DNA of 64,000 bases. It comes from Paracoccaceae bacterium. GTDB taxonomy: Bacteria; Pseudomonadota; Alphaproteobacteria; Rhodobacterales; Rhodobacteraceae. The stretch lies in NCBI GenBank assembly GCA_018222585.1, contig JAAFAB010000007.1:1-64000 (forward strand), given 5' to 3'. A program made the translations under genes and the position numbers. The notes under the pieces were generated by a model. That model did not search any database. It saw nothing but the letters and a program-made list of their open reading frames with translations, and had not been told where the DNA came from. Shown piece by piece: positions 1 to 49,018 of the stretch; within the stretch, counting starts at the first letter, position 1; every line of letters begins with the position of its first letter.

Positions 1-2265
1 TATCACCTCGCAGCGTCAGAGCTCATCTACAACGTGGGCCGCAGACGCCGCTTACACAATAGCGGCAAGACTTCCGCGATGGTCGCTCTACGCATCTTTC
101 TCCTTTCGCCGAACCGCCTTGCACTGCGTGACGTGACGATCGCCAACTGGACTAAGATTGACCTGTTGGGTGAGGACTGGGAGACGGATGCCGAGGCGAC
201 AGTCGATTTTGACGCGCTCCTTCCCTCGGTGGACGTCTGGCTAGACGTGCCGCTTAGCGAGATTCAGCACGTCGTTCACATTTTGCCAACGCTGGATTGG
301 TCCGGCGGATTGCTCGGCGTTCGACTAAAATATCATGCCAAAGACTTGGAAAAGCTAAAGGCTGAATATCTCGCGCAGCGAAGTGCTGCTCGGGATGCGT
401 CAACTGCCGGCCCGAATGGAGAAGCGATCAAGATAGCGGTGTGGCCTCGCAACCTAACCGACTTTCTCGAACGGCGGTTGCGAGCGCATATCGAACTTTC
501 GGCTTATCCGCTTGATCCGGCTGAGGTCACGCCACCGGGCAAGAACGGTCTGGCTATACCGCAAACCCTGCCCGCCAGTGCTCTTGCATTCGATCAGCCG
601 CCTTTCAGGAAACTGATAAAGATCGACGAGATCGCGGCACAGCGTGACTTCGCCGATGCGGTCGGCAACGAAGGTGGAGAAGACAAAGGCGAGGCAACCA
701 GCCGTCGTTTTAAGCGCCGTTTGTCCGACCAGTTGCGCTCCTACTACGATCGCCATCTCGACCCATCCAAAACCCCGTCCGACAAGGATTATGAGGCGCT
801 CGGGGCAATACAGGCCGCCGAACGAAGCTTTGACGCGAGACTTGAGGCAGGCTTCGCGACTGCATTTGAAGAGTTAGAAGATCTTGGATATCCGGGGATG
901 AACAACCCCAAGCTTAAACTCTCCACGCTCCTTCGCGCGACGGATGGGCTGAAACATGGCTCCTCCGTACAGTATCAAGTCGCGGATCCTTCCGGTGATG
1001 GCACCAAGACCCTCAAACTCCCTGAAGACTATTCGGGTCTCGGTTATCAGAATCTGATCGCAATGGTGTTCATGCTGATGGGTTTTCGCGACGAGTGGAT
1101 GCGCGTCGAAAAGGCTGGCCTCCTCGAAGGCGTGGATGTGTCACACGAGATTCAACCTCTCCACTTGGTGCTTGTCGAGGAGCCTGAAGCCCATCTCCAT
1201 GCCCAGGTCCAGCAGGTCTTCATCAACAAAGCCTACAACCTTCTCAGAAAGCATCCCGATCTAGGTGCCGAGGAAAGCTACTGCACCCAGCTCGTCGTCA
1301 GCACCCATTCCAGCCATGTTGCGCACGAGGCCGATTTCGCGAGCCTGCGATATTTTCGGCGCCGAGCCGCTGCGAGCAAAGGAGAAACGCCAACCACAAC
1401 GGTCGCGAACCTCTCTCACATTTTTGGTGACGGCGACGACACAAAGCGCTTCGTAAAACGGTACCTCAAGGCGACGCACTGCGACCTGTTTTTCGCGGAC
1501 GGGGTCATATTTGTGGAAGGCCAAGCCGAACGCATCCTTGTGCCGCACTTCATTCGCCATCATTTCCCCGAACTATCTCGTCGATATGTCACGCTGCTTG
1601 AGCTCGGCGGCAGCCATGTGCACAGTTTTCGGGATCTGATCGATGCTCTTGGAATCGCGACCCTGATCATCGGCGACCTCGACGCTACTGCGGCAGTCAA
1701 GATCATAGACAAGAATGGCAAGGAAGCAACGCGCTGGAAGTCGGCGCGCCCCGAACAAGGCAAGGAGCAGCGTACCGCTAACTCTGTCCTCAAGGAATGG
1801 CATCCCAAGAAGAAGCTGATCGACGAATTGGTCGCGCTCGCGCCCGAAGGGCATGTATCGGACGAAGGAGAGGACTACGAGCTCTACGTCGCCTATCAGA
1901 AGCCGGTGAAAATCAAGTCCCTCGGTCCGGGCGATGACATCATCATTCCACGAACATTCGAGGACGCCCTGATCTTGGAGAACCTCGCCACTATCGGAAA
2001 TGTCGAGGGCTCTGTGACGTCGGTCAAGGTCAGATCCATCGTTGCGCAAGGCCTTTCGGGCGATGATCTTGAGGATGAACTGTTCGAGTTGTTGAAGACC
2101 GCTGAAAAAGCGGCATTCGCACTCGATTGTCTGATGATTGAGAACCCCACGGCCTTGGAACCACCGAGCTATATCGCGGCTGGACTTAAATGGTTCGAGC
2201 GGGCCGTCAGCAAAGATATTGCGGAAAGCGAACTCAAGACGGGTAAAGCAGATGGCGGACATTGA
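1..2265 (+). CDS. Gabija-like OLD-family ATP-dependent nuclease (GajA-like), 5' end cut by window
   Basis: The reading frame is open to base 1, so the true start lies outside the window; 754 residues are visible. The N-terminal part is an ABC/SMC-like ATPase. NSGKTS is the end of a Walker A loop, but the first glycine of GxxxxGK is not seen (RLHNSGKT). Walker B is LHLVLVEEPEAHLHAQ. The C-terminal part is a TOPRIM nuclease domain with VEGQAE (Glu506, counting from base 1) and GDLDAT (Asp559, Asp561). AAA plus TOPRIM is the OLD family layout, and in Gabija GajA is a DNA nickase controlled by nucleotide levels. The start codon of the UvrD-like helicase overlaps this gene by 14 nt, the gajA-gajB arrangement. 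It is longer than the roughly 580 residues of Bacillus GajA, so a class 2 OLD/UvrD relative outside Gabija proper is possible. Confidence 0.8.
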   Translation, partial: YHLAASELIYNVGRRRRLHNSGKTSAMVALRIFLLSPNRLALRDVTIANWTKIDLLGEDWETDAEATVDFDALLPSVDVWLDVPLSEIQHVVHILPTLDWSGGLLGVRLKYHAKDLEKLKAEYLAQRSAARDASTAGPNGEAIKIAVWPRNLTDFLERRLRAHIELSAYPLDPAEVTPPGKNGLAIPQTLPASALAFDQPPFRKLIKIDEIAAQRDFADAVGNEGGEDKGEATSRRFKRRLSDQLRSYYDRHLDPSKTPSDKDYEALGAIQAAERSFDARLEAGFATAFEELEDLGYPGMNNPKLKLSTLLRATDGLKHGSSVQYQVADPSGDGTKTLKLPEDYSGLGYQNLIAMVFMLMGFRDEWMRVEKAGLLEGVDVSHEIQPLHLVLVEEPEAHLHAQVQQVFINKAYNLLRKHPDLGAEESYCTQLVVSTHSSHVAHEADFASLRYFRRRAAASKGETPTTTVANLSHIFGDGDDTKRFVKRYLKATHCDLFFADGVIFVEGQAERILVPHFIRHHFPELSRRYVTLLELGGSHVHSFRDLIDALGIATLIIGDLDATAAVKIIDKNGKEATRWKSARPEQGKEQRTANSVLKEWHPKKKLIDELVALAPEGHVSDEGEDYELYVAYQKPVKIKSLGPGDDIIIPRTFEDALILENLATIGNVEGSVTSVKVRSIVAQGLSGDDLEDELFELLKTAEKAAFALDCLMIENPTALEPPSYIAAGLKWFERAVSKDIAESELKTGKADGGH

Positions 2266-4171
2266 GACTGCGCCGGCGGACTTCGATGATGGCGCTGACG
2301 CCCAGATACGAGACTGCTTGAACCCCGCCAATCCACAGAGCTTCTTCCTGTACGCGGGAGCGGGCTCAGGGAAGACGCGCTCGCTTAAGAACGCACTGGA
2401 TGCTTTCCGCGAAGATCACGGCACAGCTTTCAGGCGTAGCGGTAAGAAGATCGCGGTGATCACCTATACGAATGCAGCAGCCAATGAAATCGCTGAACGC
2501 GTAGGTGAGGATCCCGTGTTTCCGATTTCGACAATCCACAGTTTCTGCTGGAAGCATATTGGAACCTACCATAGCGACATCCAGGCGTGGCTGCTCGCGA
2601 CGCTCCCTGTCGATCTGGCCGAACTGCACGAGAAGCAAGCAAGGGGGCGCGCCGGCACCAAGGCGGCGCTGGATCGCGAACGCGCAATTGCCTCTATTAC
2701 GCGGCGTCTCGAATGGCTTAGAACTCCCCGGCGGTTCACTTACAATCCGAACGGAGACAATTTCGGCCAAGACTCGCTGTCCCATTCCGAGGTCCTGAAG
2801 ATCACGGCGGCGTTCATTGAAAACAAACCATCGATGCAGGCGGTCCTCGTCAACAAGTATCCCTTCCTGCTCATCGATGAGAGTCAGGACACAAACAAGG
2901 GCCTACTCGAGGCCTTTTTCGCACTCGCAGCTTCGAACAAGGGCATGTTTGCTGTGGGCCTGTTCGGGGATATGATGCAAAGGATTTTTCTCGACGGTCA
3001 TCCGGAACTGGAACGCCTGGTTCCGGAAGATTGGGCCCGTCCCGTAAAGCGACTGAACCACAGATCACCTCAGCGCGTGATCGCGCTTGGCAATGTGCTT
3101 CGCGCTCCGATTGATCATCAAAGCCAGGTGGCCCGCGAAGATAGCGATGTCGGGCTTGTTCGCTTGTTTGTCGCCTCCAGCAGCACGCCCGACAAGCCGG
3201 CGTTCGAGCGGCAGGTTCAGGAGCGAATGGCTGAATTTTGCGGCGATCCTGATTGGCGGGACCAAGCAGGAGTGAAGGCGCTCACGCTCGAACACCATAT
3301 GGCGGCGTCAAGGTACGGGTTCCTTGAAATGTTCCAGGCGCTTGACCGGGACTCGCGCCTATCGACCGGGCTTCGGACAGGAGAGATGGCGGGCCTAAGG
3401 CTTTTTACCGAACGCGTCGCTCCGCTAGTCGCGGCTGCACAGGCGAACAATGCCTTCGCGGTCATGGCTCACCTCCGCGCAACTTCTCCCCTTCTGAAGC
3501 GATCAGCGATTGCTGAGAGGTCGATAGCCGACGATCCGTTGCAGCCAATTCGTGCAGGTGTAGACGCGCTGCTGGGCCTCGACACCGAAAGCCCAGATGC
3601 AACCTTTCTCACCGTTCTCCAATGCGTGGCGGAACATGGACTGTTCGAAATTCCTGCTGCCCTGCAGCCGTTTGTCGCTGATGAACCGAAGGCCGATGCG
3701 GCCGCGCCTGAGCCAACTAGTGAAGATGCAGAGTCGAACGAGGAGGAGGCAGTCGCGGAGGCATCTCCCGAGAGCCTGGAGGCTTGGCGGGCATTTCTTG
3801 AGACACCGTACCACCAAACGGTCCCTTTCGCAGAATATGTCAGCGATCGTGGTCCCTTCGGAACCCATCAGGGCGTAAAGGGCCTTGAATTCGACCGCGT
3901 ATTGGTAATTCTTGACGATAGCGACGCGCGTGGTTTTCTGTTTTCTTACGATAAGCTGTTCGAAGCCAAACCGCTGTCGGGCACTGACCGCAAGCATCTT
4001 GCCGATGGCACCGAAGGCGGCATCACGCGCACGCGGCGCCTCCTCTACGTCACCTGTACACGAGCGCAGAAAAGCTTGGCGCTAGTCGCCTATTCCGAAG
4101 ATCCCGATACTCTCGTCGCCTCCGCACTTCGTAACGGTTGGTTCGAAGTTCATGAGATCGAACGATTTTGA
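2252..4171 (+). CDS. UvrD/Rep-type superfamily 1 helicase (GajB-like)
   Basis: A 639-residue protein. The ATG at 2252 is preferred over an upstream in-frame start because it begins just before the end of the nuclease gene and places Walker A near the N-terminus, as usual. SF1 helicase motifs appear in order: AGAGSGKT (residues 35-42), LLIDESQDTN (about residue 205), GDMMQRIF, NHRSPQRVI, THQGVKGLEFDRVL (about 535) and RRLLYVTCTRAQKSL (about 595). An acidic low-complexity stretch rich in Glu and Ala lies near residues 480-510, between the helicase lobes. Overlap with the OLD nuclease gene implies translational coupling and a shared complex, as GajA and GajB form in Gabija. GajB is usually about 500 residues, so this is a larger variant. 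The helicase assignment is firm; the system name is an inference from the pair. Confidence 0.82.
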   Translation: MADIETAPADFDDGADAQIRDCLNPANPQSFFLYAGAGSGKTRSLKNALDAFREDHGTAFRRSGKKIAVITYTNAAANEIAERVGEDPVFPISTIHSFCWKHIGTYHSDIQAWLLATLPVDLAELHEKQARGRAGTKAALDRERAIASITRRLEWLRTPRRFTYNPNGDNFGQDSLSHSEVLKITAAFIENKPSMQAVLVNKYPFLLIDESQDTNKGLLEAFFALAASNKGMFAVGLFGDMMQRIFLDGHPELERLVPEDWARPVKRLNHRSPQRVIALGNVLRAPIDHQSQVAREDSDVGLVRLFVASSSTPDKPAFERQVQERMAEFCGDPDWRDQAGVKALTLEHHMAASRYGFLEMFQALDRDSRLSTGLRTGEMAGLRLFTERVAPLVAAAQANNAFAVMAHLRATSPLLKRSAIAERSIADDPLQPIRAGVDALLGLDTESPDATFLTVLQCVAEHGLFEIPAALQPFVADEPKADAAAPEPTSEDAESNEEEAVAEASPESLEAWRAFLETPYHQTVPFAEYVSDRGPFGTHQGVKGLEFDRVLVILDDSDARGFLFSYDKLFEAKPLSGTDRKHLADGTEGGITRTRRLLYVTCTRAQKSLALVAYSEDPDTLVASALRNGWFEVHEIERF

Positions 4172-5700: not shown

Positions 5701-7569
5701 ATGGCAATATCCAGCGATCAATGCACACCGTACCTGTCTGTTGCGCTTTACCGTGCAAAAAATGAACAGGCGATTGGACCGAGCGATTTGCTCACTGCGA
5801 TCCGCGATTTTGCCAAGGAAAATGCTGAGAAGAAAGGCAAGGAAAAGCCTAGATTTCCGACTGTTCTGGACCCCTGGATCGAAGTTGAGGGAACGACGAT
5901 CGCCCTGGCGCACTATGTCGAAAAGAGAGTTCCGAGTTGGTTCGTTGGTGAAGGTATTACAGACACACTAAATCAGCTGATCATCGTCGCCAGACGCGGA
6001 AGTCTGTACGCCTTACTGTTCTCCGACAATGGCCTTCGAAGCTCGGTTTCAAAGAAGGTCTTACGAGCCGCCGACGGACCCTTTGCGAGCATCACGCGGC
6101 TCAGCTCGAGCCAGATCAACAAGGCATTTGTCGAGAGCGAGGTTCGGACGCTTTGGCTCAGCGGGACACACCGTCGAACCGCAATCAAGCCTGACTCTAA
6201 GATTCTCTCGGGACTCGAATTGGAGACCTCCCTCGATCCGCTTGGGGACCAGACCTATTACTTCAGCTCGGTCCGCAGTACGATGTCGCTATCAGACGAC
6301 TTGACGGGTGCGGTCGTCGGTGCAAGCCCGTCGGGAGGCCGTATCTGGATTGGCCCCACCCGGTCCTGGAACGAATTCACCAGATCCATCGGCATCATTC
6401 TCGACCGAGCGGCCACCTGCATGAACGATGCTGCGCGGCCGGACAAACCTCTCCCAATTCTCGCCTCGACGATCTCTACTCTAGATGGAATTGAGCAGCC
6501 CTACGACCTCGCGTTCATTGTACCCGAACAGGTGCACGATGGCGACGGCGAGGCAGATGAGGGCGAACTTCGATGGCTCCAGCAGTTTGGCGATGCAGCT
6601 CGGTTTGAGGTCACAGCCGTCGCCGGAAGCGCAAACTTTGAGGCTGACGTATACTGGGCAACAGACAGGCTTGGGCGACTGGCCTACGACTTCGAGCAAT
6701 CCACAGGCGCAGATATCCGACTCAAAATTCGGCAGGTGGACGGTTTCAACAACAATGACCGGGATCCTGAAATTCTTACGATCTGCCGGGACCCAGGAAA
6801 CCTCACGGTCTATTTCGACACGGGCCATACGTACTCGCGCGGTCATTTCTACGAAGCCCGCTTCAGAGACGCCAGGTTCTCCGACTGGCAGTGGGTTTCG
6901 ATGGCACACGATGAAACTGACTTTTGGCAAGAGAAGCCATTGGACGGCAAACGGTTTGCGGTTGAGAACACCGGCAATGCCGAAGACAAATCCCTTTTTG
7001 GCATGGTTGCAAGGCACTGGCCAAATCTGGCGGAACGAGGTCCGCAGACCGGCTGGCTCGTGTGCGACGACGGAGCCATGGAGTCGGCCGATTTCATCCA
7101 TATCGACGACGCGAGTAACCCGCCTGAACTGACATTGATCCACGTGAAAGGAAGCGGGTCTGACAAAAACAACCGCGGGCTGTCCGTGTCCGACTATGAG
7201 GTTGTCGTCGGTCAGGCGATCAAGAATCTCCGCCACATCGACCGCGGGTTGCTGCGAGAGAAGTTGGGGGCAAACGCCGACGGCGTACTTGAGAACGCAG
7301 TCTGGCATAATGGTCAAAGGCAGGAAAACCGAGGCGCGTTACTCGCCATGCTCGATGGGTTGGGCTCAAACATGAAAACGACTGTGGTTGTGTTCCAGCC
7401 GCGGGCGCGCCGTTCCGTTTTCAACAGCATTCGAGGAAGGATGGATGATGGTGACATGAACCGATCAGATGTCCGTCGCATGCAGCAACTGGATGCTCTT
7501 CTTCTCGGAGCGCGGGCTGATTGTTTTTCGCTGGGAGCGGAGTTCCGCGTGATTGCGGATGATAGCTAG
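5701..7569 (+). CDS. Unrecognised 622-residue defence-island protein with a possible PD-(D/E)XK-like nuclease motif
   Basis: I do not recognise this as a named family. No Walker motif, signal peptide or membrane helix is visible. Near the C-terminus, residues 452-485 contain Glu461, Asp464 in SADFIHID, then His481-Val-Lys483 in TLIHVKGSG. The spacing and strand pattern resemble the D...(E/Q)xK core of restriction-like nucleases, with His in place of the second acid, and a following helix carries Gln (VVVGQAIKNLR). The N-terminal 250 residues, including PSWFVGEG and GRIWIGPTRSW, vaguely recall regions accompanying large defence helicases, from memory only. The gene lies 67 nt after the DUF2235 gene and 92 nt before the CD-NTase on the same strand. 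It could be an extra CBASS effector, a partner of DUF2235, or independent. No strong Shine-Dalgarno precedes the ATG. Confidence 0.7.
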   Translation: MAISSDQCTPYLSVALYRAKNEQAIGPSDLLTAIRDFAKENAEKKGKEKPRFPTVLDPWIEVEGTTIALAHYVEKRVPSWFVGEGITDTLNQLIIVARRGSLYALLFSDNGLRSSVSKKVLRAADGPFASITRLSSSQINKAFVESEVRTLWLSGTHRRTAIKPDSKILSGLELETSLDPLGDQTYYFSSVRSTMSLSDDLTGAVVGASPSGGRIWIGPTRSWNEFTRSIGIILDRAATCMNDAARPDKPLPILASTISTLDGIEQPYDLAFIVPEQVHDGDGEADEGELRWLQQFGDAARFEVTAVAGSANFEADVYWATDRLGRLAYDFEQSTGADIRLKIRQVDGFNNNDRDPEILTICRDPGNLTVYFDTGHTYSRGHFYEARFRDARFSDWQWVSMAHDETDFWQEKPLDGKRFAVENTGNAEDKSLFGMVARHWPNLAERGPQTGWLVCDDGAMESADFIHIDDASNPPELTLIHVKGSGSDKNNRGLSVSDYEVVVGQAIKNLRHIDRGLLREKLGANADGVLENAVWHNGQRQENRGALLAMLDGLGSNMKTTVVVFQPRARRSVFNSIRGRMDDGDMNRSDVRRMQQLDALLLGARADCFSLGAEFRVIADDS

Positions 7570-7661
7570 CCAGGATTGTCGGCCATCCACAAAAACACCC
7601 CCGCAGGACCCTCGGGATCTCGTGTACCATTTGTCGCTTTGATTAAAAGGAGGCCATTTGC

Positions 7662-9203
7662 ATGGCGTTCACGCTGCCGAATACCCGACCCCTCGACGAT
7701 CTGCTCGAAGACCTTGTCGAGGAACTGCAGGTGCCGCCAGGCCGCTACGAGCAGGCCGAGAGAAGCTACAAGTCGCTTGGTGAGTGGTTGCACAGGCCGG
7801 AGTCAACCGTGCGGGAGAGCGATCCTGACGTTTATGTGCAGGGCTCATTCCGCTTGGGGACGGCGATCAAGCCCGCGTCGGACGAGGAAGACTACGACAT
7901 CGATATGGTCTGCCGTCTCGGCTACGAGAAGTCCTCCCTGAGCCAGGCGGAGCTCAAGCGGCGGGTCGGCGTCGAAATCAGGGCCTATGCAAAGCGCCAC
8001 GGCATGAGCAAGCCGGATGACGGTCGGCGGTGCTGGACGCTGGTCTACGCCGACGGTGCTCAGTTTCACATGGACGTTCTGCCGGCCGTGCCGGATTCCG
8101 AGAAGAGGCGATACCTCAGGGAAGCAGGTCCGGTCCTTGCCCGTCTCGGGGCCACCGCCCTCGCCATCACGGATAATGAACACCCTGATTTCCAGCGGAT
8201 TGCGGGAGACTGGCCGCGCAGCAATCCGAAAGGCTACGCTCTGTGGTTCAGGGATCGCATGGGCCAAGCCTTCCGAACCCGTGCCCTGAACGAGGCCCAC
8301 AAGATGCGGGCCAGCGTCGAGGAAGTGCCAACCTACCGCGTGCGCACGCCTCTGCAAGGGACCATCCAGATCCTCAAGCGTCATCGTGATATGATGTTCA
8401 GCGACCGAACTGACGAGAAACCGATCTCGATCCTGATTACGACGCTTTCCGCCCACGCTTACAATCAAGAAGATGATCTCTCTGGTGCACTCTTTTCCAT
8501 CCTCCGCAACATGGACAGGTACATCATGCAGCGCGAAGGTGTTGACTGGGTCGAGAACCCGGCCGACCCTGCGGAGAACTTCGCGGACAAATGGGAAAAA
8601 AATCCGGAGCGGCGGGACGCATTTCACGAATGGCTCGCGCAGGCCCGCGCCGATTTCGCGTCCGCTCACCGGGCCGCCACCGCCGATGTCGCGGGAACCA
8701 TCCTGAGCGAGCACATGGGCACGGCACTGGTCAATCGGGCCCTCGGGCGGCGCAATCCGGTCCAGAAATCGGGATACGTAGCGCCGCTTGTGCGCGCCGC
8801 CAACCTTATCCTAGCGCCGGCCTATATGCGCAAACCGCGCTGGCCCCATAAGCCGGAAGGCAGAGTCTCCATCGACACCGCGACATTCACGCAGAAGGGG
8901 TTTCGTCCCCAGCCTTTCATCAGTGGCGGCGCTGCATTGCCGAAGCACAGCTCACTGAACTTCAAGGCCGAAACGACCCTGACGGGCCGGTTCAAGGTTT
9001 ATTGGCAGGTAGTGAACACCGGGCGTGAAGCAGAGGTGGCAGATTGTCTACGCGGCGGATTCAACCTGGATTCAGCGGTGCGGGGCGGGCTGACCCATAC
9101 CGAGAGCACACTCTATCGCGGTCAGCACAGTATTGAATGTTTCATCGTCAAGAACGGTAAGCTGGCGGCGCGCAGCGGCCAGTTCATCGTCAACATCGCC
9201 TGA
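7662..9203 (+). CDS. CBASS CD-NTase (cyclic oligonucleotide synthase) with AGS-C sensor domain
   Basis: A 513-residue protein with an excellent Shine-Dalgarno (AAAGGAGG at 7646-7653, 8 nt before ATG). The nucleotidyltransferase core has GSFRLGT (Gly61-Ser62) followed by DYDIDMVC with Asp79 and Asp81, and a third Asp138 in FHMDVLP, the complete metal-binding triad of CD-NTases. The last 140 or so residues, from about 370, match the AGS-C domain often found at the C-terminus of these synthases, an immunoglobulin-like sensor module. On sensing phage the enzyme would make a cyclic di- or trinucleotide that activates the HNH-SAVED protein encoded next. No Cap2/Cap3 (E1/E2-JAB) or HORMA/TRIP13 genes are present, so this is a minimal synthase-effector CBASS unless the upstream orphan gene takes part. 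The nucleotide product cannot be predicted here. Confidence 0.92.
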   Translation: MAFTLPNTRPLDDLLEDLVEELQVPPGRYEQAERSYKSLGEWLHRPESTVRESDPDVYVQGSFRLGTAIKPASDEEDYDIDMVCRLGYEKSSLSQAELKRRVGVEIRAYAKRHGMSKPDDGRRCWTLVYADGAQFHMDVLPAVPDSEKRRYLREAGPVLARLGATALAITDNEHPDFQRIAGDWPRSNPKGYALWFRDRMGQAFRTRALNEAHKMRASVEEVPTYRVRTPLQGTIQILKRHRDMMFSDRTDEKPISILITTLSAHAYNQEDDLSGALFSILRNMDRYIMQREGVDWVENPADPAENFADKWEKNPERRDAFHEWLAQARADFASAHRAATADVAGTILSEHMGTALVNRALGRRNPVQKSGYVAPLVRAANLILAPAYMRKPRWPHKPEGRVSIDTATFTQKGFRPQPFISGGAALPKHSSLNFKAETTLTGRFKVYWQVVNTGREAEVADCLRGGFNLDSAVRGGLTHTESTLYRGQHSIECFIVKNGKLAARSGQFIVNIA

Positions 9204-9366
9204 TGCGGAATGCTGGCAAGATGAAGCGACGGAGGCCTTGTCATTGGTAAGACCCTCCCGGGTGAATTCGACTGTCCGCCAAGTATGAAGATGGTAACCA
9301 CCCCGACCCGTTCTAATATGAGATCGTTCGCCATTCCAAGGGCGGCCTGAATTTGGAGGATGACCC

Positions 9367-10497
9367 TTGTCCAGTTCCTATATCCCGAAGGCGACGCAGA
9401 TTTCCCTTTGGACACTCGCGGCCGGACGGTGTGAATTCGCCGGTTGCAACCGCTTGCTGATCGGCGACCTTATCGCCGGAAAGGAAGACGGCAAGTTCGG
9501 CTTCATCGCCCATATCGTGGCCGACAGCGAAAACGGCCCGCGTGGCGACAAGGTCAGGTCCCCTTTGCTGAAACAGGACATCAGCAACCTGATGTTGATG
9601 TGCCCGATCCATCACAAGCTCATCGATGTAGATCATGTGGACGACTACCCGGAGGCCACGCTCATCGCGATGAAGCAGGAACATGAGAGCCGGATCGAGA
9701 TCGTGACGGACATGGATGCCGACCGCGCGGCACACGTTCTGCGGTTCGCCGCCAATATCGGACAGCTCGAATCGCTTGTCTCCACCAAGGCGATATTCGC
9801 AGCCATGCCGCCTGACCGGCATCCGGCGGAGAGACGCACGATCGACATCGAGCTCAACGCCGAGGTGCGTGACGGGGAGCCGGCCTTTTGGGCCATGCAA
9901 AGCGAGCACCTACGCAGGCAGTTCGCGCGCAAGGTCAAGGAACGGGTCGAACAGAGGGAAATCCAGCAGCTGAGCGTCTTCGCGCTTGCACCGCAGCCGC
10001 TTCTGATTGAACTCGGTACCCTGCTCGGAGACATCATGCCGGTGTCGGTTCATCAAAAATATCGGGAACCGGCGACCTGGAAATGGCAGTCACAGCAACC
10101 TGCTATCACATTCCGAACCCAAGACCATTTCGGTGCGAAGGAGTTGCCCGTCGCCCTGAAACTGGGTGTGAGCGCCACGATTGATGACGGCAGGATCTTT
10201 TCTGTCCTAGGAGAGCATGCCGCCATCTGGTCGATTACCGCGGAGACCCCTCATAACGACATCATGAGGCGGCAAGACGATCTATCGGTCTACAAACGAC
10301 ATCTTCGCGGCATGTTTGATCGGATCAAGGCGCACCATGGCGAAAACGCTCTCATCAACGTCTTCCCCGCCGTTCCGGTGTCCCTGGCCGTGGAAACCGG
10401 TCGCGCCTGGATGCCCAAGGCCGATCTGCCCATGCGCATCTTCGACCAGAGCCGAGAGGCCAAGGCGTTCGTTGCGGCAATCACTATCGGTGGGTAG
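9367..10497 (+). CDS. cap5: CBASS effector Cap5 (HNH endonuclease-SAVED)
   Basis: A 376-residue protein starting at TTG 9367, with GGAGGA at 9355-9360 and no nearby ATG. The N-terminal HNH nuclease has Cys22 and Cys27, His49 in FIAHIVAD, Asn74, Cys79 and His82/His83 in NLMLMCPIHHKLID, so zinc-binding and catalytic ββα-metal residues look complete. The C-terminal half, from about residue 150, has the length and pattern of a SAVED domain, which binds the cyclic nucleotide made by the CD-NTase. Cap5 proteins of this layout (about 380 residues) assemble on ligand binding and degrade double-stranded DNA, killing the infected cell. The gene follows the synthase by 163 nt. Identification of HNH is firm; SAVED is inferred from context and overall architecture. 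Confidence 0.9.
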   Translation: MSSSYIPKATQISLWTLAAGRCEFAGCNRLLIGDLIAGKEDGKFGFIAHIVADSENGPRGDKVRSPLLKQDISNLMLMCPIHHKLIDVDHVDDYPEATLIAMKQEHESRIEIVTDMDADRAAHVLRFAANIGQLESLVSTKAIFAAMPPDRHPAERRTIDIELNAEVRDGEPAFWAMQSEHLRRQFARKVKERVEQREIQQLSVFALAPQPLLIELGTLLGDIMPVSVHQKYREPATWKWQSQQPAITFRTQDHFGAKELPVALKLGVSATIDDGRIFSVLGEHAAIWSITAETPHNDIMRRQDDLSVYKRHLRGMFDRIKAHHGENALINVFPAVPVSLAVETGRAWMPKADLPMRIFDQSREAKAFVAAITIGG

Positions 10498-41791: not shown

Positions 41792-42586
41792 CTAGGCCAG
41801 GTCCGCGCTCAACGCGGCGATGGTGGTGCGCACGGCGTCCTCCGCGTCCTCACCGAAGAGCACCCGTTTCGGCGGCTCGGCCTCTCCCGCCAGGCGGGCG
41901 AGGCGCCTGGCAAGCTCCGTCGGATTGCCGGGCTGCTGGTGGTTGGCACCCTCGATGAAGGCCCTGAACTGGCAGGCGGCCTCCGTGTAGTCGGCAATCT
42001 CGATGTCGCCGTGCCGGGCCGAACTGGCATCGAGGAAGTCGGTGCGCATCATCCCGGGGTTGACCACAATCGACCGGATCCCGAAACCCGCCACCTCGTC
42101 GGCCAGGCCCGCGATCCACCCTTCGAGGGCGAATTTCGACGACGAGTAGACGGCGCCGCCCGGCGCCGACACCAGGCCGCTGGACGACGAGATGGTCACC
42201 AGAAGGCCGCTGCCCTGGGCACGCATCCAGGGCAGCACCGCCCGCGTCACGGTCATCGGGCCGAAGAGATTGACCTCGAATTCCTGCCGGATGGCCTCCT
42301 GCCGTGTCATCTCGAAGAAACCGAGCTGCGCATGACCGGCGCTGTTGATCAGCACGTCGATGGTACCGAAGGCGCGGATGGCCTCGTCCACCGCGGCCTC
42401 GACACCCTGCGGATCGGTGACGTCAAGGGCGACGACCCGCAGGTCATCGCGCTGCGGCAGCTTGGCTGCCAGTTTCCCGGGCGACCGGGCGGTCGCGACC
42501 ACGTTGTACCCGGCCTCGAGAAAAGCGTGGACCAGCTGAAGGCCGAGGCCACGGCTGGATCCGGTGATAAGACATGTCCTGGTCAT
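41792..42586 (-). CDS. Short-chain dehydrogenase/reductase
   Basis: A 264-residue SDR from ATG 42586, with GGAGG 5 nt upstream; another ATG 12 nt earlier is less likely. It has TGSSRGLGLQL, VLINSAG (a variant of NNAG), SSSSGLVS with catalytic Ser, and YSSSKFALEGW (YxxxK). It should use NAD(P). The C-terminal part resembles the oxidoreductase subgroup found beside LysR or AraC regulators. The next gene upstream on the same strand is a LysR regulator. Confidence 0.88.
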   Translation of the reverse strand: MTRTCLITGSSRGLGLQLVHAFLEAGYNVVATARSPGKLAAKLPQRDDLRVVALDVTDPQGVEAAVDEAIRAFGTIDVLINSAGHAQLGFFEMTRQEAIRQEFEVNLFGPMTVTRAVLPWMRAQGSGLLVTISSSSGLVSAPGGAVYSSSKFALEGWIAGLADEVAGFGIRSIVVNPGMMRTDFLDASSARHGDIEIADYTEAACQFRAFIEGANHQQPGNPTELARRLARLAGEAEPPKRVLFGEDAEDAVRTTIAALSADLA

Positions 42587-42727
42587 GTTTGCCTCCATTG
42601 CGTTCGTGACGGAGGTAGAGACCGGACCGGCGCGTGACTACCGCGCCATTTCTACTTGGGTCCATTAGGGAGATTAATGGGCCGTGATGGCGCCCTGCCC
42701 AGGTCGCGGCGCCGGCGCAGCGAACGC

Positions 42728-43627
42728 TCAGCCCACGCGCTCGCAGGCCGCCGCCTGACGGAAGAAATCGATGAAGGTCCGCAACGCCGGCGGCACATGC
42801 CGGCGGCTCGGAAAATAGAGGTGCCAGGCCGGCAGCGTGGGTGACCAGTCGGCGAGCACCCGCACAAGACGCCCCTCGGCGAGGGCCTCGGCGGCAAAGG
42901 GCAAGGCGACCCGGGCCAGCCCGATCCCGCCGAGCGCCGCGCGCACGGCGTGCCGGGCATCGTTCACCGTCAACGTCCCCTGTGGCACCAGCACGATATC
43001 CTCGCCATCCCTGTGGAAACGCCAGGGAAAGATCGTCCCGCTCGGGAAGCGGTGACGGATGCAGTCATAGCGCGTCAGGTCCTGCGGCGTCCGGGGAGCG
43101 CCGAGGCGGTCGAGCAGCTCCGGGCTGGCAACGATCGCATAATCCTGTTCCGGACCGATCGGGACCGCGATCATGTCCTTCGCCATTTCCAGCCCCAGCC
43201 GGACGCCGACATCGAAGCCTTCGGCGACGATATCGACATTGCGCGCATCCTCGATGAGTTCGAGCGAGATATCGGGATAGGTCGTCATGAAGCGCACCAG
43301 GTGCGGCATGATGAGGTATTCCAGCACGGGCGCCGGTGCATTCACCCGCACCCGTCCCGTGGGCTGCCCGGTCAGCGAGCGGACCTCTTCCAGCCCCGAA
43401 CGGATCTCGTCGTAGGCCGGGGCCAGCCGATTGGCCAGCAGGCTGCCAGCCTCGGTCAGGGCCACGCTGCGGGTGGTGCGGTTGAACAGCCGGACCTGCA
43501 GATCCTCCTCCAGGCCGCGCACGGCCTGGCTCAGGGCGGATCCCGTCACCCCCCGCTCCTTCGCAGCGTCGCGGAAGCTTCCCGCACGGGCCACGGCCAG
43601 GAAGGATTCGAGATCAGAGTGTCGCAT
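42728..43627 (-). CDS. LysR-family regulator
   Basis: A 299-residue protein with HTH LESFLAVARAGSFRDAAKERGV and QAVRGLEEDLQVRLFNRTTR, and an effector domain from VRVNAPAPVLEYLIMP. The promoter-side gap to the divergent gene at 43757 is 129 nt and AT-rich (AAGTTTTTCTAACTAATGATG), as expected for LysR-controlled promoters. It may control the downstream SDR on its own strand. The gene diverging from it starts with an SDR-like leader (see the cytochrome c entry), which hints that its original divergent target was an SDR. Confidence 0.87.
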   Translation of the reverse strand: MRHSDLESFLAVARAGSFRDAAKERGVTGSALSQAVRGLEEDLQVRLFNRTTRSVALTEAGSLLANRLAPAYDEIRSGLEEVRSLTGQPTGRVRVNAPAPVLEYLIMPHLVRFMTTYPDISLELIEDARNVDIVAEGFDVGVRLGLEMAKDMIAVPIGPEQDYAIVASPELLDRLGAPRTPQDLTRYDCIRHRFPSGTIFPWRFHRDGEDIVLVPQGTLTVNDARHAVRAALGGIGLARVALPFAAEALAEGRLVRVLADWSPTLPAWHLYFPSRRHVPPALRTFIDFFRQAAACERVG

Positions 43628-43756
43628 TCGGGATCTTTGCTAAGTTTTTCTAACTAATGATGTAAGAATTCTATCACTTATCTTCTCAATTTCCAGTCCC
43701 CAGATGGGTCTGAGCGTTGCACCGCATCCTCAGCAGAAAGGGCACCGGAAGCAGAG

Positions 43757-44350
43757 ATGACAGACCAGAGAATTGCACTCGCCACAGGCGGATCCGGCGA
43801 GATCGGCCGCCGCGCCGCACAATCGCGCTCGCCCCATGGGCTTGCCCTCGCCCCCCCGTTCAGTCGCAGCCGAAGGGCCATCGATCTGATCGGCCCCGGG
43901 ATCAGCTCCACCGAGGGCACGGACCCAGCAATCGTACCCGGTACACCGACAGAGACCGGTGACGCCCTGCGCTTGGGCAGCGCCAAGTCCCGGCCCGCGC
44001 TGGCGCTCATCGCCCTGCTGCTGACCATGGCCGCGCCGCAAGGGGCGCAGGCCCAGCAGGCAGAAGGTGAACGGCTGTTTCGCCAGCGATGCGCGGCCTG
44101 CCACAGCCTCGACGCCGACGGCAGAGGCGCAGGGCCGTCCCTGGCAGGCATCCTCGGCCGCGAGGCCGCCAGCCTGGACGGGGTCCGCTACTCCGGGGCC
44201 CTCAGCGACTCCGGGCTGACCTGGGACGCCGAGACCCTGGACCAGTTCCTGAGCAACCCCGGCGAGCTGGTTCCGGGAACCACAATGCGGGTCCGTATCT
44301 CCAACCAGGCACAACGCGAAGCGATCATCCGGTTTCTCGAAGGCGCCTGA
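43757..44350 (+). CDS. Exported c-type cytochrome (class I), with SDR-like N-terminal leader
   Basis: The frame from ATG 43757 has 197 residues. The cytochrome itself starts later: a signal peptide with the hydrophobic core [16 protein letters not shown] ends at GAQAQQ, followed by haem motif CAACH (residues 112-116) and axial Met in GTTMRVRI. The first 22 residues, [20 protein letters not shown], look like the cofactor-binding start of an SDR, not a cytochrome. The true start may be TTG 43973 or nearby, but no good ribosome site is seen there. It would accept electrons from the molybdenum hydroxylase encoded next. Confidence 0.82.
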
Positions 44351-44391
44351 GGGCGCCAGCCACCTCGAAAATAGCACCCCAGGGAGCCACC

Positions 44392-44844
44392 ATGATAAAT
44401 CTCAACGTGAACGGCCAGTCGGTCGACATCGACGCAAGCCCCGAAACCCCACTGCTCTGGGCCCTGCGGGACGAGCTGCAGCTGACCGGAACGCGCTTCG
44501 GCTGCGGGGCCGGCATGTGCGGCGCCTGCACGGTCCATATCGACGGCGAGGCCAGGTTCGCCTGCCAGACCCGTATCGGTGATGTCGGTGAGGGCAGGAT
44601 CACCACCATCGAAGGGCTTCACCCGGAGGGCGATCACGCCGTCCAACGCGCCTGGATCGCCGAGCAGGTGCCGCAATGCGGCTACTGCCAGTCGGGGCAG
44701 ATCATGCGCGCCGCCGCGCTGCTGGCCCGCACGCCCAACCCCAGCCGGCAGGAGATCCTCGACGAGATGTCGGCCAACCTCTGCCGCTGCGGCACCTATC
44801 CCCGCATCATTCGTGCCATCGAACGCGCTGCCCAGGAGGGCTGA
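44392..44844 (+). CDS. iorA: 2Fe-2S subunit of a xanthine-oxidase-family molybdenum hydroxylase (IorA-like)
   Basis: A 150-residue protein with both expected [2Fe-2S] clusters: plant-ferredoxin type Cys38, Cys43, Cys46, Cys58 ([15 protein letters not shown]) and the second CGYCQ...CRC set, Cys96, Cys99, Cys131, Cys133. It is the small subunit of isoquinoline 1-oxidoreductase or aldehyde-dehydrogenase type enzymes that transfers electrons from the molybdenum site. It has no export signal and probably crosses the membrane attached to the Tat-exported partner. Four nucleotides separate it from the large subunit. Confidence 0.92.
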
Positions 44845-44847
44845 GAC

Positions 44848-47034
44848 ATGACCTTGCAGGATATCACCACCTCGCGTCGCGGCTTCCTTCGCGGATCTGG
44901 CGCGCTTTCCTTCGCGCTTCTCAGCGGCGGCGGCCTCGGCGTGGTTGCCGACGGGGCCGAAGCGCAGGCGGTCGCGGACGGCCGCGTCACCGCCTGGGTG
45001 ACGATCACCGCCGATGATCGCATGACAATCATGTTCGGCGCGGCCGAGATGGGCCAGGGCGTCAACACCTCGCTGCCGATGATCATCGCCGAAGAGCTGG
45101 ATGCCGACTGGAGCACGGTCTCTGTCCGGCAGGTCGACTCCGACCCGGACGGGGTCTACGGCAACCCGGGCTTTGGCGGCAATCTCTTCGCGGCCGGCAG
45201 TTCCTCCCTTGAAGGCTATTACAGTGCCCTTCGCCAGGCCGGCGCCCAGGCGCGGCAGATCCTGGTACAGACCGCCGCCGCGCATTGGGGGGTCCCTCCC
45301 CGGGAGGTCACGACCCGGGAGGGCGCGGTGATCCACGACGGCTCGGGGCGCACCATGCGCTATGGCGAGGTTGCGGCATTGCCCGAGCCGGTGACCACCG
45401 TGTCGCAGATCGCCGAGGACGATCTGAAGCCGCGCGCCGAGTGGCGCATCATGGGCACCGATGTCGAGCGCCTGGACTCCCCCGGCAAGACGGTCGGCGC
45501 GCCGCTCTACTCGATCGATGTCACGGTGCCCGGGATGTTTTATGCCGTGCAGTTGCTGGCGCCGGTGGAGGGAGAGACCCCCACGATCATCTCCGACGCC
45601 GCGACACGCGCCGTGCCGGGCGTGGAGGATGTCGTGGTCATGGACCACGCCGTCGCCGTGCTCGCCCGCAGCTTCTGGTCGGCGGTCACCGGGCGCGACG
45701 CGCTGGAGGTCAGCTGGAGTAGCGACTCCGCCTTCAGGAACGCGGACAGCGCCGGAGAGCTCTCCATCCTGGCCGAAGCCGCCGACGACATGGCCGCCGA
45801 TCCCGTCATCTGGGAGGCCCGTGGCGATGCCGAGGGCGCGCTTGCGGAGGGTGAGGAGGTCATCACCGCGCATTACCTGACCGAGCATGTCTATCACGCG
45901 CAGATGGAGCCGCTGAATGCCGTCGCCTCGGTGGACGAGGACGGGCTGGGGGCCGAGGTCTGGCTGGGATCGCAGAGCCAGACGGTGTCCATCGGGATCG
46001 CGGCCGGCACCCTTGGCACCTCGCCCGACCGCATCCGCTACCATGCCATGCAGATGGGGGGTGGTTTCGGCCGCCGCACGGTCTTCGCCCGTGACCTGCT
46101 GCGCGACGCGCTGCTGCTGTCGAAGGCTGTCGGCCGTCCGGTGAAGCTTGTCTGGACCCGCGAGGACGACGTGAAGAACGGCTGGCTGCGCCCCGCCACC
46201 GTGCAGCGCCTGGACGCCCGACTTGACGAAAACGGCACTCTCGCCGCCCTGCGCCACCGGATCGCCGCGCCCTCGATCTTCGAATTCGCCTTTCCCGACC
46301 GGTGGAACCCCGAGACCCGCCGCGACGTGCTGGTGATGGAAGGCAGTGAAAGCGCCGAATACGACATTCCCGATTTCGCGGCCCAGCACGTCCTGGTCCC
46401 GCGACAGTCGCGGGTATCGGCCTGGCGTGGCATCGGCTGGGCGCCGAACTGCTTCGCGCGGGAATGCTTCCTGGACGAGCTGGCCGAACGGGCGGGGTCG
46501 GATCCCGTCACCTTCCGCCGTCAGTTGCTGAGCGGGACGCCACGGGCGCTGGCGGTCTTCGACGCGGCGGTCGAGATGTCGGACTTCGGCAATGCCCCCG
46601 AGGGCCGCGCCCACGGACTTGCCTTCGCCGGCTACAAGGCGACGCTTGCAACCGGCGTGGCAGAGGTCTCGATCGAGGACGGCCAGTTGCGGGTGCACAG
46701 GTTCTGGGCAGCCGTTGATCCGGGCATCGTCATCCACCCCCAGCAATACCGGGCCCAGGTCGAGGGCGGCGTGCTCTTCGGCCTGTCATCGGTGCTGCGC
46801 GAACGCACGACCTTCACCGGCGGCGAGATCGACCAGAGCAACTTCTACGACTACGAACCGATCCGCATCCAGGATGTCCCCGAGATCGAGGTGCGACTTG
46901 TGGAGTCCGGCCATCCCCCCAGCGGGGGCGGCGAGATCGGGGTGCCGATGGCGGCGCCTGCCATCGCCAATGCCGTCAGGGTGCTGACCGGGACCACCCC
47001 GCGACAGCTGCCGTTTCCGCAGTTCGACGCCTGA
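44848..47034 (+). CDS. iorB: Molybdopterin-binding large subunit (IorB-like), Tat-exported
   Basis: A 728-residue protein with twin-arginine signal SRRGFLRG (residues 9-16) and hydrophobic stretch to about residue 40. Molybdenum-cofactor motifs of the isoquinoline-oxidoreductase subgroup include GAAEMGQGVNTSLPMI, MQMGGGFGRRTVF and the C-terminal SGGGEIGVPMAAPAIANAV with the catalytic Glu. There is no FAD subunit gene, fitting the two-subunit plus cytochrome design that delivers electrons to a c-type cytochrome in the periplasm. The substrate is an N-heterocycle or aldehyde; which one cannot be told. It is followed 18 nt on by the intradiol dioxygenase gene. Confidence 0.92.
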   Translation: MTLQDITTSRRGFLRGSGALSFALLSGGGLGVVADGAEAQAVADGRVTAWVTITADDRMTIMFGAAEMGQGVNTSLPMIIAEELDADWSTVSVRQVDSDPDGVYGNPGFGGNLFAAGSSSLEGYYSALRQAGAQARQILVQTAAAHWGVPPREVTTREGAVIHDGSGRTMRYGEVAALPEPVTTVSQIAEDDLKPRAEWRIMGTDVERLDSPGKTVGAPLYSIDVTVPGMFYAVQLLAPVEGETPTIISDAATRAVPGVEDVVVMDHAVAVLARSFWSAVTGRDALEVSWSSDSAFRNADSAGELSILAEAADDMAADPVIWEARGDAEGALAEGEEVITAHYLTEHVYHAQMEPLNAVASVDEDGLGAEVWLGSQSQTVSIGIAAGTLGTSPDRIRYHAMQMGGGFGRRTVFARDLLRDALLLSKAVGRPVKLVWTREDDVKNGWLRPATVQRLDARLDENGTLAALRHRIAAPSIFEFAFPDRWNPETRRDVLVMEGSESAEYDIPDFAAQHVLVPRQSRVSAWRGIGWAPNCFARECFLDELAERAGSDPVTFRRQLLSGTPRALAVFDAAVEMSDFGNAPEGRAHGLAFAGYKATLATGVAEVSIEDGQLRVHRFWAAVDPGIVIHPQQYRAQVEGGVLFGLSSVLRERTTFTGGEIDQSNFYDYEPIRIQDVPEIEVRLVESGHPPSGGGEIGVPMAAPAIANAVRVLTGTTPRQLPFPQFDA

Positions 47035-47052
47035 GCAGGGGAAGGGCTTCTG

Positions 47053-47688
47053 ATGACCAGATCCACTCACGAAACTGCGCCTGACGCGCGCGACCGGCGG
47101 GACAGGAAGATGTCCCGCCGCACCCTCCTGGGGGTCTCTGCCGGCGCGGCGGGCGCCTGGGCCCTCTGGCGACCGCTGCCCGGCGGGGCGCAAACCGCGC
47201 TGGAGCCGACACCGGCCTGCGGCTCGGACCATGCACCGACACCCTCCTCGAACGAGGGGCCTTTCTTCAGCCCCGACAGCCCGGAACGGGCCGATATCAC
47301 GGAGGGGCGCTTTGCCGGGCAGGACCTGCTGGTCGGTGGCTACGTTCTGGACACCGCCTGCCGTCCCGTCGCCGGCGCGCTCGTCGAGATCTGGCAGGCC
47401 GATCCCGGGGGCGACTACGACAACCGGGGCAACCTGCTGCGCGGTCACCAGTATAGCGACGCGGCGGGGCGTTGGCTGTTCACCTCCGTCCTGCCCGGTC
47501 CCTACGGCAGGCGGGCGCGCCATGTTCACCTCAAGGTGCAGCGTCCGGGCGGGGAGGTTCTGACCACCCAGATGTTCTTCCCGGGGGATCCGGCGCAGGC
47601 AGGCGATAGCCAGTTCAATCCGCGACTGCTGGCAGAGTTGAGCTCTGACCAACCACACAGCGCGAGGATGGACATCGTGCTGGGGTGA
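47053..47688 (+). CDS. Tat-exported intradiol ring-cleavage dioxygenase family protein
   Basis: A 211-residue protein with Tat signal (RKMSRRTLLGVSAGAAGAWAL). The mature part has the protocatechuate 3,4-dioxygenase-like core: SSNEGPFFSPDSPERADI, GALVEIWQADPGGDYDNRG, GHQYSDAAGRWLFTS and LPGPYGRRARHVHLKV. Candidate Fe(III) ligands are Tyr in GDYD or GPYG and the HxH pair. Exported intradiol-like proteins are known, but their substrates are poorly defined. The gene is the last of the molybdenum hydroxylase operon, so it may cleave a hydroxylated aromatic made outside the cytoplasm. Confidence 0.85.
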   Translation: MTRSTHETAPDARDRRDRKMSRRTLLGVSAGAAGAWALWRPLPGGAQTALEPTPACGSDHAPTPSSNEGPFFSPDSPERADITEGRFAGQDLLVGGYVLDTACRPVAGALVEIWQADPGGDYDNRGNLLRGHQYSDAAGRWLFTSVLPGPYGRRARHVHLKVQRPGGEVLTTQMFFPGDPAQAGDSQFNPRLLAELSSDQPHSARMDIVLG

Positions 47689-47819: not shown

Positions 47820-48917
47820 CTAGGCGGTTTTCTGGTAGCCCCCGTTGTAGGCGTCGCTCTTCCGGCGGATCTGGGAATGTTCGACGATCCTTTCGCGCGC
47901 GATGCCCCGGAACTCCTCCAGCGAGGCGAAGCCCTTGCGCTCGAGGTAGTCGGCGAGGTCACTGGTCAGCTCGCCGATGAGTTTCACGCCGATGCCACCG
48001 CTGCCCTTTTCCTCCATCGCCGCGGTGCAGACCTGCAGGTTGCCGGCGCCCTGAACGACGAAGTTGAAGGCTTCATGGAACCCCTTGATGCCGCCGATGC
48101 CGGAAATCGCCTTGTCCGGGTAGGCCCGAGAGATCTCGGACACCCGCTGCAGGGCCTGGTTCAGGATGGCCAGGCCGCCCTGCCCGCCCGAGGTGACGAA
48201 GCCGTCCACCTCGACCTCGAACTTCATGGTTTCGGGGTCCATCAGGGGCATCGACGGGAAGGTGTTGCAAAGGGAAATCGCCGACGCCCCCGCCGCGTAG
48301 GCCGCCCCTGCCGCATCGACGAGGGAAGAGGTCGAAGGCGTCAGCTTGACCCAGATCGGCACGCTGACAACGCTGGTGACCGCCGCCAGGATCGAGCGGA
48401 TGATGTCTTCGTCATTGGCGATGTGGGCGCCCATGTCCTTGCGGTCCATGTGGGGACAGGACATGTTCAGCTCCAGCGCGTCACAGCCCGCGTCGACACA
48501 GGCGGTGGCCAGCCTGCGCCAGTTGTTCATCTCTTCCTCGCCGCCGGCACCGGCCATGATCGAGGCGATCAGCATCCGGTCCGGATAAGTCTTCTTGATC
48601 TCCTCCAGGTCGGGAAGCCATTGCTCAAGCGGCTGGTCCGAGATCAGTTCCCAGTTCCACGAGGAATGCGACACGGTATCGGGGCGCTTGGTGCGCGACA
48701 CGTAGGGCTTTTCCTCGCTCGACCTCTGGAAGATCGTTTTCGGCCCGGCGACGTTCTCGACCGGGTGCAGACCGATCGTCTTGGTGACGACGCCCCCCCA
48801 TCCGGCCTCGAAGGCCCTGAGGATCTTGCGCTTGCTTTCCGTCGGCGGCGCAGAAGCCAGGACGAACGGATTCACGAACTCAAGACCGGTGAAGTTAGTT
48901 GTAAGCGCAACAGGCAT
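47820..48917 (-). CDS. preA: PreA-like dihydropyrimidine dehydrogenase/dihydroorotate dehydrogenase family protein
   Basis: About 365 residues from ATG 48917 (GGGGGATG upstream). FMN-binding TIM barrel: NPFVLASAPPTES, GWGGVVTKTIGLHPVENV, LELNMSCPHM (the NxSCPH motif), VWVKLTPS-like PIWVKLTPSTSS and GIGGIKGFHEAFNFVVQGA. It corresponds to the pyrimidine-reducing domain of NAD-dependent dihydropyrimidine dehydrogenase, but it lacks the C-terminal 4Fe-4S ferredoxin segment of standard PreA and no PreT or dihydropyrimidinase gene is adjacent. The loop after SCPH also differs from the usual HGMGERG form, so another substrate is possible. Confidence 0.78.
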   Translation of the reverse strand: MPVALTTNFTGLEFVNPFVLASAPPTESKRKILRAFEAGWGGVVTKTIGLHPVENVAGPKTIFQRSSEEKPYVSRTKRPDTVSHSSWNWELISDQPLEQWLPDLEEIKKTYPDRMLIASIMAGAGGEEEMNNWRRLATACVDAGCDALELNMSCPHMDRKDMGAHIANDEDIIRSILAAVTSVVSVPIWVKLTPSTSSLVDAAGAAYAAGASAISLCNTFPSMPLMDPETMKFEVEVDGFVTSGGQGGLAILNQALQRVSEISRAYPDKAISGIGGIKGFHEAFNFVVQGAGNLQVCTAAMEEKGSGGIGVKLIGELTSDLADYLERKGFASLEEFRGIARERIVEHSQIRRKSDAYNGGYQKTA

Positions 48918-48930
48918 CGCACATCCCCCA

Positions 48931-49018
48931 TGTTTCATGACCGGGTCCCCTCTGTGATGCCCGGGCCCCCGTGTTTCATGACTAGGAACCCAATCTTTTA
49001 CCAATTAGTCAATATTGG
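48931..49018 (-). promoter_or_regulatory. Repeats and palindrome upstream of the PreA-like gene
   Basis: TGTTTCATGA occurs at 48931-48940 and 48972-48981, within longer copies differing at one base. Further upstream CCAAT (49001-49005) and ATTGG (49014-49018) bracket TAGTCAAT. On the minus strand TTGACT lies just inside this palindrome and could serve as a -35 element. Together these look like a regulated promoter with two direct-repeat sites, but the regulator is unknown. Confidence 0.45.

Follow-up and report, generated by a model that had tools for sequence, protein, structure and literature searches.

A candidate LysR-controlled operon for a Tat-type molybdenum dehydrogenase and a Tat-type intradiol dioxygenase in a Paracoccaceae bacterium

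We identified a four-gene operon that joins a molybdenum enzyme and an intradiol ring-cleaving dioxygenase, both with twin-arginine translocation (Tat) signals, in a 64,000-nucleotide stretch of a Paracoccaceae bacterium genome (assembly GCA_018222585.1, contig JAAFAB010000007.1, positions 1 to 64,000; hereafter, the window). The operon lies on the plus strand in the order cytochrome c, IorA-like subunit, IorB-like subunit, dioxygenase, with gaps of 41, 3, and 18 bp, and a LysR-family gene is divergent from it. Bacteria are usually assumed to cleave aromatic rings in the cytoplasm. We propose that the operon is a LysR-controlled exported module, one arrangement within a reshuffling group of exported enzymes for small aromatics, and we give this reading a probability of roughly 0.55. 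Each enzyme by itself is of a known kind; the combination and a shared promoter site are new as far as we searched, and a listing-level search of the open-licence literature returned no description that we recognised of a Tat/molybdenum operon containing an intradiol dioxygenase.

Export signals and catalytic residues of the operon proteins

The dioxygenase gene (47053..47688, plus strand; alternative start at 47110) closes the operon, and the gene 3' of it (47820-49004) is convergent. Its product carries the Tat motif MSRRTLLG (residues 20-27) followed by a hydrophobic stretch, both read from the sequence, and ends at residue 211, with Dioxygenase_C (PF00775) as the only Pfam domain above cut-off. 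Residues Y122, Y151, H157, and H159 align with the intradiol iron ligands, which we take them to be. The alignment has 132 rows, among them two of the window's own protein but not L003 and L005, which are further copies of it. In 128 of these rows the full ligand set is conserved; the exceptions are L172 and L108, which have gaps at these positions, L180, and L008. The L172 homolog (genome G691) has one in-frame TAG within the match. A conserved cysteine pair, present in the window protein, is complete in 122 of the 132 rows, reduced to one cysteine in 3, and missing in 7. As a clean mark of export this pair was ruled out by L013 and L017, which lack both cysteines yet have RR signals.

To compare signals, we used a custom script that looks for an arginine pair and a hydrophobic N-terminus. 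Of the 110 close dioxygenase rows (the window's own copy, L118, included), 104 have RR (75) or RK (29) followed by a hydrophobic stretch, as do 17 of 21 distant rows for RR. All 39 IorB-type rows passed (window's own included; matches without the first 60 residues left out), along with 16 of 16 metallo-beta-lactamase-fold (MBL) hydrolases and 11 of 11 aldo/keto reductases (AKRs) from the related clusters described below. The test is loose, because 5 of 25 LysR controls also passed, as did the cytoplasmic-looking distant row L022, probably a false call. Given the signals in the close rows, we rejected the view that exported intradiol enzymes are exceptional.

By sequence, the closest solved structures are 4ilv and 4ilt, which show the dioxygenase of SACTE_2871 from Streptomyces sp. 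SirexAA-E. A model of the window protein built from 52 rows (mean predicted local distance difference test score, pLDDT, 83.7; ten-residue block means of 88-97 from residue 61 on) has the same fold as these entries (TMt 0.91-0.93, root-mean-square deviation 1.4-1.9, 44-45% identity). It is helix-free before residue 180 and so lacks a helical domain at the N-terminus. Behind these entries the fold comparison ranks PDB 9yh9, a phage catechol 1,2-dioxygenase recovered in a metagenomic survey of soil. To judge from its PDB and paper titles, SACTE_2871 combines the dioxygenase with a carbohydrate/lignin-binding domain in one fusion protein, whereas the window protein stops after the dioxygenase domain, and a Pfam scan found no such C-terminal domain in it. 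The SACTE_2871 locus (L082) shares with the window dioxygenase a signal region, here of SRK type, but unlike the window has no IorB-type match within 8 kb. Passages of PMC9167512 cite the SACTE_2871 paper for secreted enzymes on caffeic acid-type compounds, and the cited title calls the enzyme secreted. Together with the signal counts above, this makes too strong the assertion, in an initial interpretation made from the DNA alone (hereafter, the sequence-only reading), that intradiol enzymes are usually cytoplasmic. The Tetranychus urticae intradiol dioxygenases (5vg2, 6bdj) are likewise small and secreted, at 22-24% identity in the fold alignment; according to the same passages, the secreted enzymes of this mite act on plant phenolics and are of fungal origin by horizontal gene transfer (PMC9167512).

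The IorB-like molybdenum subunit (44848..47034, plus strand; MoCoBD_1, PF02738, and MoCoBD_2, PF20256) carries the Tat motif TSRRGFLRG, again read directly from the sequence. Across 21 aligned rows, the window's included, R10 and R11 are invariant and E696, presumably the catalytic glutamate at the molybdenum site, is kept in at least 90%. The model of IorB (mean pLDDT 85.4) has as its best fold match 8gy3_C (template modelling, TM, score 0.85, 28% identity; next entry 0.61), the large subunit of the membrane-bound aldehyde dehydrogenase of Gluconobacter oxydans; the large subunit alone was compared. The IorA-like [2Fe-2S] subunit (44392..44844, plus strand; Fer2, PF00111, and Fer2_2, PF01799) has eight cysteines and lacks a signal of its own, so it would need to travel with IorB, and we infer that the two are exported together. 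These subunits are encoded by separate genes, and a flavin adenine dinucleotide (FAD) subunit is absent from the operon. At the front stands a monoheme cytochrome c (CAACH) with a Sec-type signal (43973..44350, plus strand; Cytochrom_C, PF00034). Its open reading frame (ORF) is open from 43757, which is probably an over-extension: by start codons and translation, TTG at 43973 gives a clean 27-residue signal peptide and is the likely start. In the 8gy3 system the comparison differs here, the window cytochrome being a small monoheme protein. All of these Pfam matches are above cut-offs, and the sequence-only reading was right to describe a molybdenum hydroxylase operon ending in a dioxygenase. 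It also holds that IorB and the dioxygenase both look exported and catalytically competent, judging by their Tat motifs, iron ligands, and E696.

The source genome (5.15 Mb, 99.93% complete) encodes TatC. It has three further intradiol matches, two of them adjacent on contig C35, which we take to be probably pcaG/pcaH.

These features suggest how a LysR-inducible extracytoplasmic module might work. IorAB would leave the cytoplasm through Tat. Its substrate for oxidation would be a small molecule, with an (aryl) aldehyde the likeliest candidate, and electrons would flow by way of the [2Fe-2S] clusters to cytochrome c in the periplasm. The dioxygenase would be exported by its own Tat signal and open a catechol ring with O2. 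The two enzymes need not act in sequence; more likely, they would target different chemical groups within a single class of compounds, namely phenylpropanoid-like catechols, aldehydes, and aryl lactones, and the purpose may be detoxification or the production of importable acids. The operon would then be part of a larger regulon that reshuffles its genes and also takes in a lactonase-like MBL-fold hydrolase and an AKR, both with Tat signals. Published precedents for such chemistry are the vanillin cluster PP_3621-3623 (PMC6365646), an aromatic-aldehyde oxidase that differs in using O2 in place of cytochrome c (PMC5131310), the secreted intradiol enzymes that act on phenolics of plants (PMC9167512), and, for the MBL, the dihydrocoumarin activity of OPHC2 (PMC3817169).

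The sequence-only reading had instead placed the enzymes in series, with the exported dioxygenase cleaving what IorAB had made by hydroxylation of an N-heterocycle or an aromatic ring. IorB does belong to the molybdenum hydroxylase superfamily and does share an operon with the dioxygenase. However, enzymes of the IorAB class oxygenate an aldehyde carbon or the carbon next to a ring nitrogen and, as is well established, make no vicinal diols from benzene rings; by this chemistry IorAB would not supply a catechol to the dioxygenase. The nearest solved relative of IorB is an aldehyde dehydrogenase, and among the scanned window proteins (not every ORF was covered) there is no monooxygenase or ring-hydroxylating dioxygenase. 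We consider hydroxylation followed by cleavage very improbable. The broader idea of an extracytoplasmic aromatic process fares better than this order of steps, as it is favoured by the operator-like site and by the Tat-signal neighbours in relatives.

An operator-like site in the LysR promoter

The regulator gene (42728..43627, minus strand; PF00126 and PF03466) is 71% identical to an ortholog beside the cytochrome c-IorA-IorB operon of G263, a genome of the same family; a LysR in a hydrolase/dioxygenase cluster from Rhizobiaceae is 48% identical to it. A 52-bp sequence beside the start of LysR recurs in the LysR/MBL intergenic regions, and we found a match to it in the window at 43638..43689 (plus strand), between LysR and the cytochrome gene. 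A matrix built from 14 LysR/MBL promoter sites, the window not in the training set, has its best score in the window at 43638 (33.3 bits versus 2.6 for the next best, over 127,898 positions), and no shuffle of the intergenic stretch reached this score (0 of 2000). The register of the matrix was chosen after side-by-side reading of promoters, the window's among them. A 45-bp core pattern has a single match in the 5.15 Mb source genome, at this operon. Perfect inverted repeats were searched for in the promoters, and none was found for the window.

We scanned 2.27 Mb of fetched loci (overlapping and duplicate stretches included) on a flat background. Setting duplicates aside, non-training sites above 5 bits were found in L093 (20.5), the window (19.1), L153 (7.8 and 6.4), L115 (7.6), and L091 (5.1). 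The L093 site is thus the sole strong match besides the window's. The L093 locus, from a Rhizobium, also holds a training site. Its second site, at 15437, lies in the gap between a molybdenum-subunit stop (15540) and an iron-sulphur subunit that has its own TRRQVL (RR) signal and leads a molybdenum operon. Counting LysR genes in the fetched loci instead (E<=1e-20, start inside the match, duplicate loci left out), a site above 5 bits stands at the start of 19 of 32 and is absent from the other 13. The 19 comprise the 14 training genes, the window's, L208, L209, and L210 (37-38 bits), and L153 (weak, at 6.4); these last four are all beside an MBL. The core pattern has 7 matches in 247 genomes of the family of G549 (Rhizobiaceae by tree place), against 3 for a reversed control. 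Six of the 7 are at LysR/MBL promoters, three from training (G549, G721, G873) and three new (G886, G837, G814); the seventh (G749) stands amid genes whose translations read as sugar-nucleotide-type.

A shared LysR ancestor could explain the likeness of the divergent promoters. The second L093 site has no LysR match beside it and favours the 52-bp element as a putative operator, to which LysR would bind.

Behind LysR, a short-chain dehydrogenase (SDR; 41792..42598, minus strand; PF00106) is 33% identical to the SDR of a Rhizobiaceae cluster; whether it is a possible regulon member is uncertain.

Gene linkage in relatives and the weighing of the readings

The site-bearing clusters, mostly from Rhizobiaceae, encode a Tat-signal lactonase-like MBL hydrolase, often an AKR, and an intradiol dioxygenase. 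An MBL followed by an exported intradiol dioxygenase, directly or with an AKR between, occurs in several Rhizobiaceae, a Sphingobium, and the Roseibium described below; the AKR may also come after the dioxygenase or be missing. The AKRs of L028:5791-6870 and its relatives all have Tat-like N-termini (11 of 11). The AKR family normally uses NADPH, and a Tat-type member is odd outside the cytoplasm; it may carry a bound cofactor.

Molybdenum genes appear near these clusters. IorB homologs are present in 202 of 295 genomes of the window's family (E<=1e-60), and besides the source genome only G263 (71%) and G221 (73%) exceed 70% identity; the copy on a plasmid of Roseibium aggregatum reaches 70%. 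In G263, the LysR ortholog, cytochrome c, iron-sulphur, and molybdenum genes are followed 2.0 kb on by an MBL-fold hydrolase. G221 has AKR-MBL-LysR, with cytochrome c and a fused iron-sulphur-molybdenum ORF 2.2 kb from the MBL. The Roseibium plasmid has LysR-MBL-intradiol-AKR about 17 kb from its cytochrome c-iron-sulphur-molybdenum genes; the latter operon is followed by an IS6 transposase gene and by a catabolic cluster of gallate type with 4-oxalomesaconate tautomerase and CHA aldolase annotations (L148:8484-14151). In L182 (G721), intradiol, MBL, and LysR genes stand 2.8 kb from cytochrome c, iron-sulphur, and molybdenum genes.

At E<=1e-90, an MBL is found in only 2 of the 295 family genomes, and these are G263 and G221, the sole others with an IorB above 70%, about 2 kb away in each. 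The probability that two random pairs among 294 genomes coincide is 2e-5, a rough figure because genes move together. An iron-sulphur or molybdenum homolog is present in 9 of 18 MBL-bearing loci not fetched for the molybdenum gene (a hand count; many loci are related, and stretches and E limits differ). Among dioxygenase loci without an MBL, the figures are 1 of 73 named loci (some stretches short) and 2 of 14 unnamed loci (L183 and an edge match, L196). In G549's family, an IorB homolog lies within 6 kb in 2 of 17 dioxygenase genomes, versus 0.096 expected (Poisson P 0.004), and within 1 kb in 1, versus 0.03 expected; these counts ignore relatedness.

Several observations weigh against a LysR-controlled exported module. 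The dioxygenase is absent behind IorB in the three closest orthologs (G263, G221, and the Roseibium plasmid), and a dioxygenase gene directly adjoining IorB was observed in no genome but the source one; on these grounds we rejected a conserved IorAB-dioxygenase operon. Only 6 of 80 named dioxygenase loci have an IorB-type match in the fetched stretches. In a tree of 128 rows (four partial rows dropped; bootstrap not settled), the window dioxygenase is a long lone branch without a supported group, outside the MBL-linked clade, and its placement inside that clade was dropped. The source genome has no MBL match at E<=1e-90. The LysR of G263, the closest ortholog, has no site above 5 bits on the flat scale, the G221 sites (L153) score only 7.8 and 6.4, and G886, G837, and G814 have no dioxygenase match at E<=1e-40. 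The fused ORF of G221 (L153:7468-9750), in which residues 1-137 of IorA continue in frame with IorB, starting at about its residue 103, lacks the IorB Tat signal; it may be a natural fusion by deletion, a degenerate gene, or an assembly fault. Finally, the xanthine-oxidase-family enzyme for aromatic aldehydes that passages of PMC5131310 describe used O2, not cytochrome c.

Two other explanations bear on these points. The exported dioxygenase may have landed by chance behind an existing LysR-cytochrome c-IorAB operon and share only the transcript. The closest ortholog operons do stop at IorB, and among 294 family genomes the highest-ranking other dioxygenase match is 39% identical (E 6e-33). 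However, genes of these kinds are found together elsewhere in different orders, and the site that precedes the operon matches the promoters of dioxygenase clusters; we judge a chance insertion unlikely. Alternatively, the exported enzymes might destroy extracellular lactones, quorum signals, or competitors' catechol-type molecules rather than feed metabolism. The partner MBL matches the NCBIfam model of the quorum-quenching AidB lactonase (E 1e-34) at 120 bits, far below the cut-off of 360. The closest solved relatives of the site-sharing MBL are OPHC2, methyl parathion hydrolase, and dihydrocoumarin hydrolase (4le6, 1p9e, 5hif), of which OPHC2, the nearest, has no known native substrate according to passages of PMC3817169. 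The same passages report it inactive on acyl-homoserine lactones, with dihydrocoumarin as its best tested substrate (PMC3817169), and the source genome lacks the MBL at the threshold above; an OPHC2-group MBL is not encoded in the window operon. Signal or antibiotic inactivation seems improbable to us, more so than chance insertion.

Returning to the LysR-controlled exported module, a bolder version of it is that Alphaproteobacteria have an extracytoplasmic pathway for aromatics made up of a single, reshuffling LysR regulon of Tat-exported MBL, AKR, intradiol dioxygenase, and molybdenum dehydrogenase with its cytochrome c, which would open the lactone, aldehyde, and catechol groups of plant phenolics. 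We regard this version as tentative and somewhat doubtful. If true, part of alphaproteobacterial aromatic catabolism or phenolic detoxification would be periplasmic, with ring cleavage, aldehyde oxidation, and aryl-lactone hydrolysis exported together by one regulon. The bolder version would also place the OPHC2/methyl parathion hydrolase family in a physiological setting. The shared operator-like site makes the regulon idea testable and provides a lead on the natural role of enzymes of the methyl-parathion-hydrolase type.

Similar dehydrogenase clusters and other genes of the window

The front of the operon resembles, by description only, the deoxyribose/vanillin dehydrogenase clusters PS417_10890-10880 and PP_3621-3623, in which iorA-like, iorB-like, and cytochrome c genes also stand together (passages of PMC6365646). 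According to these passages, PP_3621-3623 is required for growth on vanillin, and the Pseudomonas simiae IorB has a potential Tat motif, like the window IorB. Judging from locus numbers, the cytochrome gene of P. simiae (10880) is beside the iorB-like gene (10885), whereas the window cytochrome comes first, beside IorA. The dioxygenase named in the same passages (PP_4655-4656) is at a separate locus, unlike that of the window, which is in the same operon.

Elsewhere in the window, the lower-GC start holds a Gabija defence pair, GajA and GajB (34-4171). It is followed by a CBASS-like set (5701-10497), in which the ORF at 5701-7569 is a weak match to a candidate defence model only, and a cyclase with an AGS_C sensor (7662-9203) precedes a SAVED-HNH effector (9367-10497).

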